From the IMG/VR virus record IMGVR_UViG_3300036832_001492, positions 1 to 20,154 of that record: a stretch of DNA of 20,154 bases. The stretch is one strand, 5' to 3'. Shown here one piece after another: positions 6,063-19,248 of this stretch. Each line of letters opens with the position of its first letter. The stretch's first letter is position 1. The DNA is from a virus. The notes beneath the pieces are model-generated. The model made no database searches. It saw only the letters and a program-made list of their open reading frames with translations, and had not been told where the DNA came from. Position numbers and translations under genes: made by a program.

Positions 6063-6337
6063 TGGACCCGCGGCAGGAAGCGTATGCGGCGCAACGCCGC
6101 GAGCATACCGAGCACGTGCGCAAACAGATTGCGCAGCGCGTCGCCGAGGCGAGCCTGATCATTGAAGCGGCCGGCTTCGATCCCCGCGACCCGAAATCGG
6201 CGACGGAATATCGGAGGCTGCATGAAGCGCAAAACCCCGGCGAGCCCGCCAGGGTGGCGAGCGGCGCGAGTGACGTCGGGCTCAACGCTGCGCGGGCCGA
6301 TCCTGGTGCCGCCGGCGCGACCGCTCCGTCGGTTTGA
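6062..6337 (+). CDS. small protein of unknown function between terminase subunits (91 aa)
   Basis: 91 residues: a charged helix (RQEAYAAQRREHTEHVRKQIAQRVAEASLIIEAAGF) followed by an Ala/Gly-rich tail, probably disordered. The ATG overlaps the small terminase TGA, which supports translational coupling. Its 3' part overlaps the large terminase start by about 116 nt in another frame. No family is recognised. It could be a packaging accessory, or its product may be incidental and serve to carry ribosomes to the large terminase start. Confidence 0.55.
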   Translation: MDPRQEAYAAQRREHTEHVRKQIAQRVAEASLIIEAAGFDPRDPKSATEYRRLHEAQNPGEPARVASGASDVGLNAARADPGAAGATAPSV

Positions 6338-9053
6338 CCCGGTCTCGACCTATGCTTGGGATGTGCTCGACGGCCGCATAACCGCCGGCCGATATGTCGT
6401 GCTGGCGTGCGAGCGCCACTTCGCCGATCTCGTGCACGGCGGCTCCCGCGGGTTGACCTTCTCCCGACAATGGGCGTTGTTCGCCATCAGTTTCTTTCGC
6501 GATTATCTGCGGCACAGCAAAGGCGAATGGGCCGGCCGGGCTTTGCTGTTGGCGCCCTGGCAGGAATTCGCGGTCGGCAGCGTGTGGGGCTGGCATCGAA
6601 GGGACGGCACGCGGCGGTTCCGGACGGCGTATAAAGAGGTCGCCAGGAAAAATGGTAAAGCCTTGGCGATCGAGACGCCGATTGCCACGCCGGACGGCTG
6701 GAAAGCTCATGGCGAACTGGAGCCGGGCGATCTGGTGTTTGATCCCTTCGGTAAGCCCGTGGCGGTGCTAGGCACCACCGGGCCTTATCCTGGCCCATGC
6801 AGGCGGCTGGAATTCTCGGATGGCACCGCGATCGTCGCCCATGATCGCCACGAATGGCGCACGCGGCGCACGGCGCACACCGGGAGGCCGCACGGCTCGC
6901 GCAAGCCGCTTCCGCTGATCGAGAGTGTCCAGATCGCCGCGACGCTGCGGCACGGCGCGCGGGCCGACCTGACGCACGGCATACCAACAGCCGCGCCGCT
7001 CGATCTCGGCCCTGGCGTTCTGCTGCCGGTGCCGCCCTACACGTTCGGCGCATGGCTGGGCGACGGCCATTCCCTCGGCCCGAGAATCACGAGTGCCGAC
7101 CCTGAGATCGTGGCGGCGATCGAGGCCGAGGGCGTGCCAATGCAAATCAGCAAGATCGCGGCGCGGGGAGCGGCGGCGTTGTATTCGATGGCCTCCCCTC
7201 GGCGGCGAGATGCCACCGGCGGTTTCGCCTCGCATGGGCTGCATGCGGGCCTGCGGAGCCTTGGCACGCTCGGCAACAAGCATGTGCCGACGATCTATTT
7301 GCGCGCATCGATTCGGCAGCGGCGGGAATTGCTGGCCGGCGTCGTCGATACTGACGGGCACATCACGGCGCGCGGTCAATGTGAGATCGTGCTTACGCGG
7401 CGCGCTCTGTTCGATGGCGTGGTCGAACTCGCTCGGTCGCTCGGCTTTAAGCCGACTGTTACAAAAGACCGGGCGACGATCGATGGGGTCGATAAAGGGC
7501 CGCGATACCGCATGCAATTCTGGCCGGCGATCGGCGAATTGCCGTTGCGCGTGCCGCGCAAACGCGACCGGCTGCGCTCGATCCCGCCGGGAAGGTCCCG
7601 GACGCGGATGATCATGGCTTGCAATCCGATCGGCGAGCGAATGGTCAATTGCATTGCGGTCGAAGGCGGCATGTATCTCGCCGGCGAGGCGATGGTGCCG
7701 ACGCACAACAGCACCGAGGCCGCCGGCGCCGGGCTCCTGGGATTGATCGGCGATAAGGAACCGGGCGCCGACGTCTACGCGGCCGCGACGCGCCGCGAGC
7801 AAGCCCGGATCATCTTCGACGAAGCGAAATCGATGGTGCGTCGGTCGCCCGAATTGCTGTCGCTGTTGTCGGTGTTCAAACTCAACATGTCGATGAACAG
7901 CACGGCCAGCAAATTCGAGCCGCTGTCGGCGGACGAGCGCACCCTCGATGGCCTGAATCCGCATCTCGTGCTGGTCGACGAACTGCATAAGCATCGCACG
8001 CGCGCCGTGCTCGACGTGCTCGATACCGCGCTCGGTGCGCGGCGCAATCCGTTGATCTGGATCATCACCACTGCTGGCGACGACAATCCGGAGTCGGTCT
8101 ATGCGGCCGAGAACGCCTACGCCATTCAGGTGCTTGAGGGCACGGTCGAAGACGACACCTATTTCGCGGCGATCTACACGCTCGACAAAGACGACCGCTG
8201 GGATGATCCCACCGCCTGGATCAAGGCGAACCCCAATCTGGGCGTCAGCGTCAAACTCGCCGATCTGCGCCGGCAGGCATTGAAGGCATCACGCTCGCCA
8301 CCGGCGTTGAACGCGTTCAAACGCCTGCGACTGAATGTCCGGACGTCGTCGGCCTCCAGGGCGATCGATATGGCGGTCTGGGCCAGGAACAACGGCGGCC
8401 CGTTCGACCCGGCGGAGATGCAGGGGCGGCGCTTTTATGCCGGGCTCGACATCAGCGCCAAGATCGATTTGACGGCCTGGGTGAAGCTGTTTCCGCCGCA
8501 GGATGGTGAAATCCGCTGGCGCATAGTGCCGCGGTTCTGGATGCCCGCTGACACTGTTGAGGCGAAGTCAGATCGGGATCGGGTTCAATACCAGCGCTGG
8601 ATTGACGCCGGCCTGATCGAGGCGACCGAGGGCAACGTGGTCGATCAGGCGGAGATCGAGGCGGCCGTGCTGGAAGATTGCAGGCTGCACGAATGCCTGA
8701 GTTGTGCTTATGATCCATGGAATGCCACCGCGCTCGCGGTCAAGCTGACCGGCCTGGGCGTGCCAATGATCGAGTTTGTGCAAGGCAGCAGGTCTTACAC
8801 TGCGCCCACGAAAGAGTTAGAGGCGATGCTTTTGCAGGATCGCCTCGACCACGGCGGCAACGAAGTGTTGGCATGGATGGCGGCCTCGATGATGGTGCTG
8901 ACAGATCGCAATGAGAATCGCATGCCGAGCAAAAAGCACTCGGTCGGGCGCATCGACGGCATGACGAGCCTGATCATGGCGATCGGGCGCTCGATGGCCG
9001 AAGACCCGAACGCGGGTCTGGACGGCTTCCTGACCGATCCGATATCGCTCTGA
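6222..9053 (+). CDS. terL: terminase large subunit (HK97/P27-type) interrupted by an intein
   Basis: 943 codons encode a precursor; removing the 350-residue intein leaves about 593 residues, a normal size. The extein starts with YAWDVLDGRITAGRYVVLACERH, typical of this terminase family. The P-loop reads ARKNGK, is broken by the intein after K146, and resumes STEAAGAG at S497. Then come Walker B HLVLVDELHKH (D586, E587 in the precursor), the coupling motif IITTAG, and an RNase H-like nuclease with GLDISAKIDLTA, CAYDPWNA and a late DRLDHGG. It is the packaging motor and DNA cutter; without splicing the ATP site would be split, so activity should depend on splicing. ATG 6222 is preferred because GGAGG lies just upstream; ATG 6162 is the alternative. 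The portal gene follows two bases after the stop. Confidence 0.94.
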   Translation: MKRKTPASPPGWRAARVTSGSTLRGPILVPPARPLRRFDPVSTYAWDVLDGRITAGRYVVLACERHFADLVHGGSRGLTFSRQWALFAISFFRDYLRHSKGEWAGRALLLAPWQEFAVGSVWGWHRRDGTRRFRTAYKEVARKNGKALAIETPIATPDGWKAHGELEPGDLVFDPFGKPVAVLGTTGPYPGPCRRLEFSDGTAIVAHDRHEWRTRRTAHTGRPHGSRKPLPLIESVQIAATLRHGARADLTHGIPTAAPLDLGPGVLLPVPPYTFGAWLGDGHSLGPRITSADPEIVAAIEAEGVPMQISKIAARGAAALYSMASPRRRDATGGFASHGLHAGLRSLGTLGNKHVPTIYLRASIRQRRELLAGVVDTDGHITARGQCEIVLTRRALFDGVVELARSLGFKPTVTKDRATIDGVDKGPRYRMQFWPAIGELPLRVPRKRDRLRSIPPGRSRTRMIMACNPIGERMVNCIAVEGGMYLAGEAMVPTHNSTEAAGAGLLGLIGDKEPGADVYAAATRREQARIIFDEAKSMVRRSPELLSLLSVFKLNMSMNSTASKFEPLSADERTLDGLNPHLVLVDELHKHRTRAVLDVLDTALGARRNPLIWIITTAGDDNPESVYAAENAYAIQVLEGTVEDDTYFAAIYTLDKDDRWDDPTAWIKANPNLGVSVKLADLRRQALKASRSPPALNAFKRLRLNVRTSSASRAIDMAVWARNNGGPFDPAEMQGRRFYAGLDISAKIDLTAWVKLFPPQDGEIRWRIVPRFWMPADTVEAKSDRDRVQYQRWIDAGLIEATEGNVVDQAEIEAAVLEDCRLHECLSCAYDPWNATALAVKLTGLGVPMIEFVQGSRSYTAPTKELEAMLLQDRLDHGGNEVLAWMAASMMVLTDRNENRMPSKKHSVGRIDGMTSLIMAIGRSMAEDPNAGLDGFLTDPISL
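6660..7709 (+). other. class 3-type intein with LAGLIDADG homing endonuclease inside terL
   Basis: 350 residues between K146 of the P-loop and S497. Block A starts with Ala (ALAIETPIATPDG), so there is no N-terminal Cys or Ser nucleophile. Block B is GTAIVAHDRHEWRT with H64 at position 10 and W66 at position 12. Block F is MVNCIAVEGG with C331 at position 4. Block G is AMVPTHN followed by Ser, with T348 at position 5 and H349-N350 at the end. W-C-T at these positions is the defining set of class 3 inteins, which splice through the block F Cys. Between the splicing blocks are two LAGLIDADG motifs, TFGAWLGDG (D135) and LLAGVVDTDG (D232), so the homing endonuclease looks intact. Base composition resembles the flanks. 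Confidence 0.93.
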
Positions 9054-13000: not shown

Positions 13001-13819
13001 ATGGTGCGGATGGTCGCACTCAAGCCTTGGTTTAACCGCGACGAAGAGGGCTCGGTCGCGGCGGGGACGTTTTTCGAGGCGCGCGAAAGCCGGGCACGGG
13101 AACTGAGCCGCGCCGGACTGGCAACGCCGGCGATCGGCGATGGCAGCAAGATCAGGGTTCCCGCCGACGTCCCCGCCGAAGGGCCGCCACCAAAGCGCAA
13201 ACGCGCCGGCCGCAAGGCGATCGTGCAACTGGCGGCCGGTCCCGAATATGTCCGCATGCTCGATCTGACGGCGGACATCCATGCCCGCTATTGCTCCGCC
13301 TGGGGGGCGGAGTTCATCGCCTATCGCGAGGCGCGCCCGAAGAAAGCGCGCCGCCCGCCGCACTGGCGCAAGGTCGAGGTCATCCGCAAGGCGCTCGACG
13401 ACGGGTTCGAGCAAGTGCTCTGGCTCGACGCCGACAGCGTGATCGTAGACGCGGCGATCGACCTGTTCGCCGTATGCCGCTGGGGGATTGGCCTGTGCGA
13501 GTGCTGGGATAGCCCCAAGGAGCCGCCGCACCTGAACACGGGGGTCGTGTGGCTCAACGCCTGTAGCGACGTCCTGGCCCTTGTGGAGGCATGGAATGCG
13601 ATGCCCTCGGGGATGCAATGGGAAGATCAGGGCGCGTTGATTGCGCTCATGCAGAAGCGCCGGTGGCGTTCGCTGTTGACGGTCCTGCCGAACCGCTACA
13701 ATTGGGTGCAGGAACACATGGAGGCGGCCGATCCCGTCATCCGGTCGTTCCACGGCGAGCCGCACCGGCTGAACCGCATGGAAGCGCTCTTGTTGCAGGG
13801 CACGGAAGCGGCAGCGTGA
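13001..13819 (+). CDS. GT-A glycosyltransferase-like protein (GT34-type) with phage N-terminal domain
   Basis: 272 residues. Residues 1-70 (MVALKPWFNRDEEGSVAAGTFFEARESRARELSRAGLATPA) resemble a small stand-alone head-region protein of HK97-like phages (parameter: changed residues 'FxxDE..G..FEA....A.EL...G.A'). From about residue 75 a GT-A core follows: YCSAWGAEFIAYR, HWRKVEVIRKALDDGFEQVLWLDADSVIVD with DAD at 143-145 as the metal/sugar-nucleotide motif, then HLNTGVVWL, WEDQGALIALM, VLPNRYNW and a late SFHGEPH. The order matches GT34-like galactosyl/mannosyltransferases. The sugar donor and acceptor are unknown. Five bases after the coiled-coil gene and one base before the next, it is clearly in the late operon. 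Confidence 0.8.
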   Translation: MVRMVALKPWFNRDEEGSVAAGTFFEARESRARELSRAGLATPAIGDGSKIRVPADVPAEGPPPKRKRAGRKAIVQLAAGPEYVRMLDLTADIHARYCSAWGAEFIAYREARPKKARRPPHWRKVEVIRKALDDGFEQVLWLDADSVIVDAAIDLFAVCRWGIGLCECWDSPKEPPHLNTGVVWLNACSDVLALVEAWNAMPSGMQWEDQGALIALMQKRRWRSLLTVLPNRYNWVQEHMEAADPVIRSFHGEPHRLNRMEALLLQGTEAAA

Positions 13820-13820
13820 C

Positions 13821-14717
13821 GTGCTGCGCCCGCTGATCATCCGCGCGCCCTACGGGCTCGGCGACGGCATCTATGTGCGGCCAGTCATTCGCGAGCAGGC
13901 GCGGCACAGGCAGGTCTACGTCGACACGCCATGGCCGGAACTCTACGAGGATATCCCCGACGTTTTTTTCTTGGAGCCGCAGACCGGGCTGCGGGTGCAG
14001 TCGGCGCACATCAGGCGGCAGCTTGCTTCGCGCTGGTCGAACCCGCCCCCGGTCGCTGACAGCGCGACGCTCTATTACGACATCCCGGCGCTGCGAGAGG
14101 GCAGCGTATACCACGCGATGGCGTCCAAGATGCCGGCGGTGCCGATCCCGGTCTGGGACCTGCCGGATTTCGGCCCCTCGCCGTTCGATACGTCGGACGC
14201 GCCGCTGGTGCTGGTGCGCCCATCAGTTCGGCGCACAGATTGGGACAACAAGGCGCGCAACCCACGGCCGGAATATATTTGCGAGATCGCCGACGATCTG
14301 AAGCGGCGCGGCTACGCAGTCGTGGTGATCTGCGATCTCTCGATCGGCGAGGAATGGATCGAGGGCGAGATGCCGCCGCACAATCTGGCACTGACGCATG
14401 GCGAACTAACGACCCGGCAATTGTTTGCCGCGGTCCGTGACGCGGCGTTGCTGCTGGGCGGCGTCGGCTGGATAGTCCCGGCGGCGATCGCCACTGCTAC
14501 CCCGGCCTTCGTGGTCCTGGGCGGCAACGGAAAGGCGAACGCACCGGAGAAGATTATCGACCACCGGATGGACGCCTCTAGAATAGGGTTCGCTTGGCCG
14601 GAGAATTTTTGCAGATGCGACGAGATGCAGCACGACTGCAACAAGACGATCCCGAACCTGATGGAACAGTGGCACCGCTGGCGGGAGACGATGCGCCCTC
14701 GGGGTTATTGCCTCTGA
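13821..14717 (+). CDS. GT-B glycosyltransferase-like protein (GT9/heptosyltransferase-like)
   Basis: 298 residues. The opening LIIRAPYGLGDGIYVRPVI matches the GLGD start of GT9 heptosyltransferase-type enzymes. The C-terminal half has LVLVRPSVR, YICEIADDLKRRGYAVVVICD, LTTRQLFAAVRDAALLLGGVGWIVPAAIATATPAFVVLGG, the nucleotide-binding half of a GT-B fold, in which the GGVGWIVPAAIA loop replaces the usual GxDxGxxHxAAA; loss of the usual acidic residue there makes activity uncertain. It ends with a Cys-containing FCRCDEMQHDC. Translation starts at GTG 13821, one base after the previous stop. It probably acts with the neighbouring GT and methyltransferase. The family assignment is moderate. Confidence 0.68.
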   Translation: MLRPLIIRAPYGLGDGIYVRPVIREQARHRQVYVDTPWPELYEDIPDVFFLEPQTGLRVQSAHIRRQLASRWSNPPPVADSATLYYDIPALREGSVYHAMASKMPAVPIPVWDLPDFGPSPFDTSDAPLVLVRPSVRRTDWDNKARNPRPEYICEIADDLKRRGYAVVVICDLSIGEEWIEGEMPPHNLALTHGELTTRQLFAAVRDAALLLGGVGWIVPAAIATATPAFVVLGGNGKANAPEKIIDHRMDASRIGFAWPENFCRCDEMQHDCNKTIPNLMEQWHRWRETMRPRGYCL

Positions 14718-15328
14718 TCGACATTCTGCGGCAACGCGACTCGCTGCAATGGTTCCCTGAACTCGCGCTCGGCTACTATCCGGTCAAGGCGCCGCCGACA
14801 GAAATCTACAATGCAGCCTACTTCGCGAAATATGAGGGCTATGCCGCGACCGATCTCGGCCGGACGCTGAACCGCATCCGCGTGGCTTTCGTCCGCAAAT
14901 ACTATGCGGGCGAGGTTGTCGACGTGGGGATTGGCTGCGGCTCGTTCGTCCGCGCGCTCGGCGCGCGGGGATACGATGTCAGCCCGACCGCCATTCGTTG
15001 GCTCATGAGCGAGGGGCTGTTTCACGATCCCTACATTCACGGGGCAGAAGCGGTGACGCTCTGGGACACGCTGGAACACGTCGAAGATTTCCCGGCGCTG
15101 CTGCGCAATGTGCGCAGCTACGTGTTCATGTCGCTGCCCATCTTCCGCGACATGGATGAAGTGCTGCTCTCAAAACACTATCGCAAGAACGAACACTGCT
15201 GGTATTTTACCCAACACGGCTTGATCATGATCATGGCGCGGCTGGGCTGGCAGTTGATCAGCGCAAACGATGCGGAGACAAAAGCGGGTCGGGCAAATAT
15301 CGGCTCGTTCGCATTCCAGAGGGAGTGA
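14615..15328 (+). CDS. SAM-dependent methyltransferase (class I, type 11/23-like)
   Basis: About 207-238 residues depending on start. The class I fold is visible as GEVVDVGIGCGSFVRALGARGYDVSP (motif I, SAM-binding Gly loop), then AVTLWDTLEHVEDFPALLRNVRSYVFMSLPIF, the acid-DTLEHV-LP order of type 11/23 methyltransferases that often act on small molecules or sugars. The later HYRKNEHCWYFTQHGLIMIMARLGW is a helical substrate cap. The substrate is unknown. The ATG at 14615 overlaps the previous gene by 103 nt; TTG 14708 would reduce the overlap to 10 nt and is equally likely, because residues before it look like out-of-frame translation. Confidence 0.78.
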   Translation: MRRDAARLQQDDPEPDGTVAPLAGDDAPSGLLPLIDILRQRDSLQWFPELALGYYPVKAPPTEIYNAAYFAKYEGYAATDLGRTLNRIRVAFVRKYYAGEVVDVGIGCGSFVRALGARGYDVSPTAIRWLMSEGLFHDPYIHGAEAVTLWDTLEHVEDFPALLRNVRSYVFMSLPIFRDMDEVLLSKHYRKNEHCWYFTQHGLIMIMARLGWQLISANDAETKAGRANIGSFAFQRE

Positions 15329-15334
15329 CGGGCA

Positions 15335-15511
15335 ATGAACCTTATCACGCTGCTGATCGTGCTCTTGATCCTGGTGATGCTGTTCGGTGGCGTTGGTTAT
15401 CGCGCGGGATGGTATCCGGCCGGGCCGCCCTACTATGGCCCGTCACTGCTCGGCCTGCTGGTCGGGATTATTCTGATCGTGCTCGTGCTGCGCCTGCTGG
15501 GACTGTTCTGA
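15335..15511 (+). CDS. 58-residue two-helix membrane protein
   Basis: 58 codons: helix 1 LITLLIVLLILVMLFGGVGY, a short aromatic loop GWYPAGPPYYGPS, helix 2 LLGLLVGIILIVLVLRLLGLF. The layout resembles small DUF3309-type membrane proteins, and two-helix length also fits a holin, but the position in the neck module does not favour lysis. GGGAG lies about 10 bases upstream of the ATG at 15335. It is six bases after the methyltransferase stop and one base before the connector start. An overlapping frame (15325-15516, 63 codons) is rejected because its product is low-complexity. Confidence 0.75.
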   Translation: MNLITLLIVLLILVMLFGGVGYRAGWYPAGPPYYGPSLLGLLVGIILIVLVLRLLGLF

Positions 15512-15512
15512 G

Positions 15513-16436
15513 ATGACCGCGCTCGGCACGCTCGCGCCGGGAGATGTCGGCTACTACGTGGTCGATTGGAGCCAGCAACTTGCCGCCGTCAGCGGCGACA
15601 CACTATCGGGCAACCTGACGGTAGAGTCCGAACTGCCCGATCTCGAAATCACCAACATCAAGCCAAGTGGCTCGGCGGCGGTGTCGTTCAATGCGTCGTC
15701 CGATGTCGCGGCGCTCTACCGGCTCACGGCGCGCGCGGCGTTCTCGCCATCGGGGCGCAAGCTGTCGCAAACAATGGACCTGATGGTCGGCCTGCCGCCG
15801 GCGGTCGAGCCGATCAGCCTCGTGGAGGCGCGCCAGCATCTCCGGCTCGATACCGAGGGTAATCCGCCCGCGCATCCCGACGACCAACTGGTCGCCTCGC
15901 TGATCACCGGCGCGCGGCAGACAGTCGAACTCGACACCGGGCTCACGCTGGTCACGCGGCCGCGGACGGATTATCGCGACGCCTGGGAACAGGTGACGAA
16001 GAGCTACGGGACGCCCGGCTGGGGCACCTATCCCGGCGCCGCCGATTATCTCCACTATGGCGATTACACGACCATGGTGCGGCCGTCGTTCCTGCTGGAG
16101 CACGCGCCGGTTATTTCGGTTGATGAAATCCGCTACCTCGACCCGGACGGCAATTCGCTGGTGCTCGATCCAGCGGTCTATCGCGTCACGCCGGACGGGG
16201 TTCTCACGCGCATTGAAGCGGCGATCGGCCAAACGTTCCCCGCTGCCTATTACGGCGGGCATGCGGTCATCGAGATCGATTACACCTGCGGGTTCGAAAC
16301 CACGATCGATGAAGCGCTGCGCTCGGCGATCAAGCTGCTGCTGACGATCTACTACGAAAACCGCGGCGTGCTCGATCGCACCGCGGCCGTGCCACAGGGC
16401 TACAGCGAACTGATCGATCCCTATCGGGTGCTCTGA
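15513..16436 (+). CDS. head-tail connector (phiE125 gp8 / gp6-like) fused to an N-terminal beta domain
   Basis: 307 residues in two parts. Residues 1-93 (APGDVGYYVVDWSQQLAAVSGDTLSGNLTV, LYRLTARAAFSPSGRKLSQTMDLMV) look like a small immunoglobulin-like beta domain that is usually a separate phage protein. From about residue 98, EPISLVEARQHLRLD, DDQLVASLITGARQTVELDTGLTLVTR, HAPVISVDEIRYLD, and ALRSAIKLLLTIYYENRG match the phiE125 gp8 / gp6-like connector family. The connector forms the ring below the portal. The stop overlaps the next ATG (TGATG). Fusion is the odd feature; both halves appear complete. Confidence 0.85.
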   Translation: MTALGTLAPGDVGYYVVDWSQQLAAVSGDTLSGNLTVESELPDLEITNIKPSGSAAVSFNASSDVAALYRLTARAAFSPSGRKLSQTMDLMVGLPPAVEPISLVEARQHLRLDTEGNPPAHPDDQLVASLITGARQTVELDTGLTLVTRPRTDYRDAWEQVTKSYGTPGWGTYPGAADYLHYGDYTTMVRPSFLLEHAPVISVDEIRYLDPDGNSLVLDPAVYRVTPDGVLTRIEAAIGQTFPAAYYGGHAVIEIDYTCGFETTIDEALRSAIKLLLTIYYENRGVLDRTAAVPQGYSELIDPYRVL

Positions 16437-17041
16437 TGTCGGTCGCGCACATTCCGGATTTCGTGCTCCCGACAATCTCGCCCGAGATCGTGCCGCCATA
16501 CTGGACACGGTTCGAATTCCTCTCGTTCCTCGTGCGCAAGTTGGACTGGAAAGCCGGCGCCGAAATCGGCGTATCTGACGGGCTGACGATCAGCTACCTG
16601 CTGGCGCGCAATCCGGCGCTGCACATGATCGGCGTCGACGCCCGGCGCGGCTTCCCCGACCACGCCGGGCCGGACGATTTCATGGACTGGCCCCATGACG
16701 ATCTGGCGCGGTTGGCCGTGAGCAAGCTGGAACCCTACCATGAACGCTGCCTGCTGCTCACCGGCCTGAGCGTCGAGGCGGCGGACGTCGTTCCTGACGG
16801 ATCGCTCGACTTCGTGTTCATTGACGCCGACCACTCGGAAGCCGGCTGCCGGGCCGACATCCTGGCGTGGCTGCCGAAGCTGCGGGCGGAGGGCTGGATT
16901 ACCGGGCATGACATCTCCTGGCCGGGCGTGAAACGCGCGGTCAGCGACACGATCCCTGGCTACCAGATCGGTCCCGACGTCGTGTGGTTTCGCCCCGTGC
17001 ATCCTTGGGCGAACTGGAAACGGTGGCTGCACCATGGATGA
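16436..17041 (+). CDS. SAM-dependent methyltransferase (Methyltransf_24-like)
   Basis: 201 residues. GAEIGVSDGLTISYLL at 41-56 is motif I, D68 in MIGVDARRGF is the likely adenosine/ribose acid, and LDFVFIDADHSEAGCRADILAWLPKLRAEGWITGHDI carries the DADH at 130-133 with the strand-4/5 layout of Methyltransf_24, a family common in glycan and small-molecule modification clusters. The substrate is unknown; small hydroxyls of sugars would fit the glycosyltransferases nearby. It sits between connector and adaptor genes, coupled by TGATG upstream and an 8-nt overlap downstream, so it is part of the virion operon rather than an isolated insertion. Confidence 0.85.
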   Translation: MSVAHIPDFVLPTISPEIVPPYWTRFEFLSFLVRKLDWKAGAEIGVSDGLTISYLLARNPALHMIGVDARRGFPDHAGPDDFMDWPHDDLARLAVSKLEPYHERCLLLTGLSVEAADVVPDGSLDFVFIDADHSEAGCRADILAWLPKLRAEGWITGHDISWPGVKRAVSDTIPGYQIGPDVVWFRPVHPWANWKRWLHHG

Positions 17042-17835: not shown

Positions 17836-19248
17836 ATGCCCGTAACAGTGCCGTCGACCGCCGAATTCGATAAGCTGACCGCGCGCGTGACCGCGCTGGA
17901 GCAAGCGAAGCCGCCGCAGCCGATCCCGCCGAACCCCAATCCCAGCCCCGGCACAGGCAAGCAGGCGAAGCGAGTCGCCGATGGGCTGATCGAATTGTTC
18001 GGCGTGAACACGTTCTCTTCGCTCGATCAGAATAATGTCTGGGGCAGCTATCCCGCCGACTACCGGCCCGGCACCGTCGTCGACGCGCTCAAGTATCTGA
18101 CGTCGAGCACGGCGTTCCGCCTGCGGCTGCGGGAATATCACTACGACAATCGCACCGATATGCAGCGGCAGTGGCTCACGCAAGTTCTCAACTCGCTGCC
18201 TAACACCAAGGTGACGATGTGCGTGGGCGCGAGCGGTAGTCAGGCTGACGTCCCGAGCCTGATTTCCCTTGCCGCCGATCCGCACTGCGGCATCAATTGG
18301 ATCGAGGGCTTGAACGAGCCGAACACGGATTTCGGCTGGGGCACCACGCCGGTCGACAGGACCATGGCGATCCAACGGGATTGCTTCCACTCCGGCAAGC
18401 CGACGATGGGACCTTCGGTCGTGGCGGGCATGCCGCATCCAGAAGGCTGGATCACCGGCTACTTCGGCGGCAGCATGGCGGAAGTGAATTCGCTGCTGCA
18501 TTGGGGCAATGGTCACTACTATCCGCCGCACTGTCCGGATCTGACTGGCGACGGGACTTCGATCCAGGAATATGTCGGCGGCTTGTGGGAGGCTTACGGG
18601 CATCATCCGATCATGCTGACCGAGTTTCATCCCAGCCTCTACAACAACCAGGGCCATGGCCCAGGGCAAAAGAGCGCGCATACCGAATTTGTCGAGGCCG
18701 AAGCGCACGCGGTTGCTTCGCAAACCGATGCCACGCTTGCAGCGCCAGGATGGGACGGCGCGCGGGACGCCTACTATACCCTGCTGACGCTGTTCCGCAC
18801 GGCGCTCTGCGGCGTCACCGGCGTGTGGTGGTATGCGCTGTTCGATTACGGATCGACCTATCAATGCGGGCTGTTCCCGGTCAACGCAACGAACCCGCGG
18901 CCGGCGGCGAACGCGATCCGCAATCTCTGCAAGCTTTGCTCGGACTCTGGCAATCTTCGCACCTTCACGCCGGGGAAACTCGACGTCGCCGTGCACGGCC
19001 TCACCGATCGCTGCGGCTGGGACCTGTATCAGCGCAGCGACGGGCTGTTCTACATCACGCTATGGCAGTCGGCGAACGAACAGGACGGCGCGCAGCCGAT
19101 ATCGACGACACTTGAATTCGGCCAGACCGTGAATGTCTCGGAATGGGATGTGGTCACCGACACGCTCGTGCAGCACGCTGACAGCGTGAAGAGCTACACC
19201 ACCGCGCTCCCCGCGCGGGCGCGGTTGCTGATGGTCAAGGCACACTGA
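17836..19248 (+). CDS. clan GH-A-like glycoside hydrolase with coiled-coil and proline linker
   Basis: 470 residues. Residues 1-25 form a short coiled coil (EFDKLTARVTALEQ), followed by a Pro/Asn-rich linker to about 45. The (beta/alpha)8 part begins GLIELFGVNTFSS. WIEGLNEPN has the acid/base Glu at 161, and IMLTEFHPSL gives a likely nucleophile Glu at 263, 102 residues later, the usual strand-4/strand-7 spacing of clan GH-A. GVWWYALFDYG is strand 8, and a C-terminal beta domain (VAVHGLTDRCGWDLYQ to end) follows. No signal peptide. Phage virion glycosidases can cleave capsule or exopolysaccharide; the coiled-coil/linker N-terminus suggests attachment to a larger assembly. The substrate and the GH family (5, 39 or other) cannot be fixed by eye. 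GGGAG precedes the ATG. Confidence 0.78.
   Translation: MPVTVPSTAEFDKLTARVTALEQAKPPQPIPPNPNPSPGTGKQAKRVADGLIELFGVNTFSSLDQNNVWGSYPADYRPGTVVDALKYLTSSTAFRLRLREYHYDNRTDMQRQWLTQVLNSLPNTKVTMCVGASGSQADVPSLISLAADPHCGINWIEGLNEPNTDFGWGTTPVDRTMAIQRDCFHSGKPTMGPSVVAGMPHPEGWITGYFGGSMAEVNSLLHWGNGHYYPPHCPDLTGDGTSIQEYVGGLWEAYGHHPIMLTEFHPSLYNNQGHGPGQKSAHTEFVEAEAHAVASQTDATLAAPGWDGARDAYYTLLTLFRTALCGVTGVWWYALFDYGSTYQCGLFPVNATNPRPAANAIRNLCKLCSDSGNLRTFTPGKLDVAVHGLTDRCGWDLYQRSDGLFYITLWQSANEQDGAQPISTTLEFGQTVNVSEWDVVTDTLVQHADSVKSYTTALPARARLLMVKAH

Follow-up and report, generated by a model that had tools for sequence, protein, structure and literature searches.

A class 3 intein with a LAGLIDADG endonuclease domain in the Walker A motif of a phage large terminase

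Background

The TerL1-a inteins of mycobacteriophages are class 3 inteins inserted between the invariant Walker A lysine and the next Thr/Ser of the large terminase, TerL (PMC5050341, mBio 2016). The K↓T site in TerL (arrows mark the point of insertion throughout) is there called the "classic" P-loop insertion, and splicing was fast in a reporter for five TerL inteins from other sites (b, c, e, f and g), two of which also cut the intein-free allele (PMC5050341). Class 3 inteins carry a signature of Trp B:12, Cys F:4 and Thr G:5 (WCT) and have no nucleophile at residue 1 (PMC5050341, PMC5222942). Their +1 residue is Ser or Thr, and proven class 3 inteins with this signature require Cys F:4 (PMC5222942). 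Members of the class also have His B:10 and Asn G:7, and their splicing passes through a branched intermediate at block F.

The window analysed here is a stretch of 20,154 nucleotides of viral DNA with a terL gene that carries an in-frame insert. The insert, in the Walker A motif of a phage TerL, is almost certainly a class 3 intein that includes a LAGLIDADG endonuclease; it would splice as class 3 inteins do, and its endonuclease would drive homing. Its class, host protein and exact K↓S/T site are already published for mycobacteriophages, so that it counts as an ordinary case within a large group that is already well described. Mycobacterium phage Eureka has a homologous arrangement, with an Ala1 WCT class 3 intein at IELARKNGK↓TEL of its TerL; the two inteins share 36% identity, and the window terL belongs to another group, for which the phage records compared contained no close relative (best match 40%). 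The class 3 DnaB1 inteins of Mycobacterium (6bs8, 6rix, 6riy) share its HINT fold and, in register, its class 3 residues, but these are mini-inteins without an endonuclease and are hosted by a replicative helicase. The two-part HINT and LAGLIDADG architecture is shared with PI-SceI, the yeast VMA intein (20% aligned identity), which, unlike the window intein, uses Cys1 and belongs to class 1. The intein designated L002, in a terL on IMG/VR contig 3300036804_000202, is 71% identical to the window intein, shares its insertion site and WCT residues, and likewise carries the two LAGLIDADG motifs. It differs in having Met at position 1 and in a terL of a different clade.

Terminase gene and insertion site

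The large-terminase gene occupies positions 6222 to 9053 (+) and is split in frame at 6660–7709; by translation, the N-extein, insert and C-extein of TerL form a single open frame. The exteins matched Pfam TerL_nuclease (3e-47), Pfam TerL_ATPase (7e-32) and phrog_9 (5e-149), and by family the terminase is of the PF03354/PF20441 type. The N-extein (6222–6659, +) begins at a candidate ATG at 6222, the presumed start, and runs from the start of the ATPase domain to the Walker A motif, ending in YKEVARKNGK. The C-extein (7710–9053, +) starts with STEAAG and holds the remaining ATPase domain and the nuclease domain. The Walker A motif is cut between Lys and Ser (ARKNGK↓STE).

A script joined the two exteins, and the joined sequence was compared by alignment with 49 terL loci from viral contigs, obtained by a search with the C-extein. 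Forty-six of these read through the site without an insert and aligned gaplessly across the junction (for example L003, RRFRTAYEEVARKNGK↓STTAAG), one (L032, on the same contig as L002) has an intein at the site, and two (L044 and L045) stop short of it. The closest intein-free relatives reached a C-extein identity of 79%. Because 46 alleles are uninterrupted, the ends of the insert are fixed at exactly the residues predicted. The original prediction had placed the insertion between the Walker A Lys and Ser and had proposed looking for intein-free terL alleles; the alignment provides those alleles and agrees with the placement.

A Lys↓Ser/Thr insertion in the Walker A motif of a Terminase_1-type TerL is also what the TerL1-a inteins have (PMC5050341). 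The setting is not unusual, as 66 of 82 related inteins lie at a GK↓S or GK↓T junction and the TerL K↓T site is the "classic" one (PMC5050341). Class 3 inteins at GK↓S/T in many phage P-loop proteins fit published statements on P-loop insertion and are not a new principle. The window extends the known range of P-loop class 3 inteins to a terL lineage beyond the well-sampled actinobacteriophages, and it supplies another example of alleles with and without an intein.

Intein anatomy and class

The insert (6660–7709, +) is 350 residues long, begins with ALAIETP, ends with VPTHN and contains zero stops. Its coordinates and all of the residues named beforehand were found exactly where they had been predicted. 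As an in-frame insert that is absent from homologues and has a HINT fold in the predicted structure, it belongs to the intein (HINT) superfamily. Residue 1 is Ala (6660–6662, +), a non-nucleophile. Block B has His64 (B:10) and Trp66 (B:12) at 6849–6857 (+), and block F has Cys331 (F:4), the predicted first nucleophile, at 7650–7652 (+), which the alignment pairs with the block F Cys of Msm DnaB1 (numbering of PMC5222942). Block G, together with the +1 residue (7701–7712, +), comprises Thr348 (G:5), His349 and Asn350 (G:7) followed by Ser+1, which is the Walker A Ser.

In a PDB search with the single sequence, both ends of the insert matched the class 3 DnaB1 inteins 6bs8, 6rix and 6riy (E ~1e-15), with Ala1, His64, Trp66, Cys331, Thr348, His349 and Asn350 in register; in the DnaB1 structures the block B residues are numbered His 65 and Trp 67 owing to a one-residue gap. 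When eight inteins from phages and plasmids were combined into a profile, 6bs8 was matched at 2e-36. E values this low, for the single sequence as for the profile, exclude a chance match to class 3 DnaB inteins.

Conservation was examined in an alignment of 82 inteins, with 80 further loci from viral contigs that were the best of at least 572 relatives; the sample was picked by similarity to the query, and its counts describe a family and are not independent tests. His64, Trp66, Cys331, Thr348, Asn350, Asp230 and Asp232 are invariant (82/82), and Asp135 is retained in 78. Position 1 is Ala in 64 inteins, Gly in 7, Met in 3, Asp in 3, Arg in 2, and Cys, Leu and Pro in one each. Residue 1 thus drifts while the Trp, Cys, Thr and Asn are fixed, which fits residue 1 as a non-nucleophile. 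The +1 residue is Ser in 46 inteins and Thr in 36.

A class 2 intein would also lack a residue-1 nucleophile, and Ala1 does occur in that class (PMC7664689); the +1 residue would then attack the N-terminal junction directly, with the Trp, Cys and Thr present by chance. The assignment was rejected, as class 2 inteins have no block F Cys or WCT signature and the full WCT is present here. Invariance of block F Cys, B:12 Trp and G:5 Thr across the 82 relatives, nearest solved splicing domains that are class 3, and the need for Cys F:4 in proven class 3 inteins of the same signature (PMC5222942) together make class 2 very improbable. The class 3 assignment made beforehand stands: Trp66, Cys331 and Thr348 occupy columns B:12, F:4 and G:5 in the alignment with inteins proven to be class 3.

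In L002 (2247–2249), the nearest relative of the intein, residue 1 is Met instead of Ala, which fits a position without a nucleophile. At the 3' ends of the L077, L092, L122, L125 and L140 inteins the penultimate His is replaced by Cys, Gly or Phe, and the L077, L092, L122 and L125 inteins are placed after PQK and before SGK/TGK, inside the P-loop and ahead of GK.

Predicted fold and endonuclease domain

The endonuclease core (7029–7370, +) has two LAGLIDADG motifs, block C FGAWLGDG with Asp135 and block E LLAGVVDTDG with Asp232, with the conserved Lys207 between them, and matched Pfam Hom_end at 1.3e-8. An AlphaFold model built from an input of 32 sequences had a mean pLDDT of 91.2 and a pTM of 0.90, and residues 72–78 were the sole segment below 50. 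Aligned with VIA-align, the model scored Z 26–27 against PI-SceI entries, over 313–339 residues, and Z 21–22 against class 3 DnaB inteins (rmsd 1.3–1.8 Å, 122–126 residues). With PI-SceI and the class 3 DnaB inteins as the nearest folds, the predicted architecture is a HINT domain with an inserted LAGLIDADG domain. The original prediction had suggested modelling the fold, and its claim of an intact two-motif endonuclease is supported at the level of sequence and modelled fold: both catalytic Asp residues are intact and the predicted fold is PI-SceI-like.

Proposed splicing and homing

Splicing, its class 3 order of steps and DNA cutting are proposed by analogy with proven class 3 and TerL inteins. 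After translation, Cys331, activated by His64 and aided by Trp66 and Thr348, would attack the Lys-Ala peptide bond. The N-extein would be transferred from Cys331 to Ser+1, Asn350 would cyclise with the assistance of His349, and ligation of the exteins would restore ARKNGKS and with it a complete ATP-binding loop. The endonuclease, for its part, most likely cleaves the DNA of intein-free terL at the conserved site, and repair would copy the intein in.

The reverse case, a splicing-dead relic that leaves the terminase inactive, is the least probable reading considered. The source record is a 20 kb viral contig that carries no host assignment, which leaves some room for a relic, but the insert has no stop and no frameshift, the signature residues for splicing and for the endonuclease are all preserved, and the neighbouring head genes are also intact frames.

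A protein with an intein in its active site cannot work until the intein has been spliced out. With the insert in the ATP-binding loop, the unspliced protein should be inactive, and the original prediction had proposed a switch late in infection. On such a reading, slow or triggered splicing would delay the TerL ATPase until late infection, and assembly of the packaging motor would be timed or stress-gated by splicing. Mycobacterial DnaB inteins can be condition-sensitive (PMC6195587). Against such a switch, the five TerL inteins assayed at other insertion sites spliced quickly (PMC5050341), and the close terL relatives are intein-free, which argues that this phage group needs no such splicing control. 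No feature of the window intein points to a regulatory role; the switch is an unsupported part of the prediction and is considered highly unlikely.

Distribution among terL alleles

In a tree of C-exteins the window grouped with the intein-free L004 and L005 (100/100), and L002 fell inside a different group (100/99) in which the other alleles are intein-free, so that the tree requires at least two changes of intein state. Gain in both clades, or several losses, would explain two intein-bearing alleles in separate clades. Homing accompanied by gains and losses would be expected to leave such a patchy distribution in this terL group.

Between the window and L002, protein identity was 71% in the intein and 57–64% in the exteins, and third-position identity was 42% in the intein and 44–46% in the exteins. 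Synonymous sites are saturated between the two inteins, and there is therefore no sign of recent exchange between the two lineages. A recent transfer of the intein between the window and L002 was considered and found to be unsupported, as third positions are no closer in the intein than in the exteins. L002 was the only close relative of the window intein found, and none of the intein-free terL alleles compared was near-identical at the site in its DNA, the best sharing 54 of 75 bases; recent homing is for these reasons unsupported. No second target-like site was found within the window, no relative of the intein or C-extein was found in the genome_contigs collection, and a repeat scan of the window gave weak short families only, unlinked to the intein.

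Other genes in the window

The frame at 17836–19248 (470 residues), which adjoins a tail-completion gene, matched neither Pfam nor PHROG at E 0.001. Accessory frames lie between the head and tail genes (13001–17041); two have no assignment (13001–13819 and 13821–14717), and two encode methyltransferase-like proteins (14594–15328 and 16436–17041). At the other end of the window, a ParB-like protein (35–721) adjoins the frame at 721–1836, a phage protein (PHROG 11143, unknown function) that has an ABC-type ATPase motif in its N-terminal part and matches GNAT acetyltransferases in its C-terminal part.
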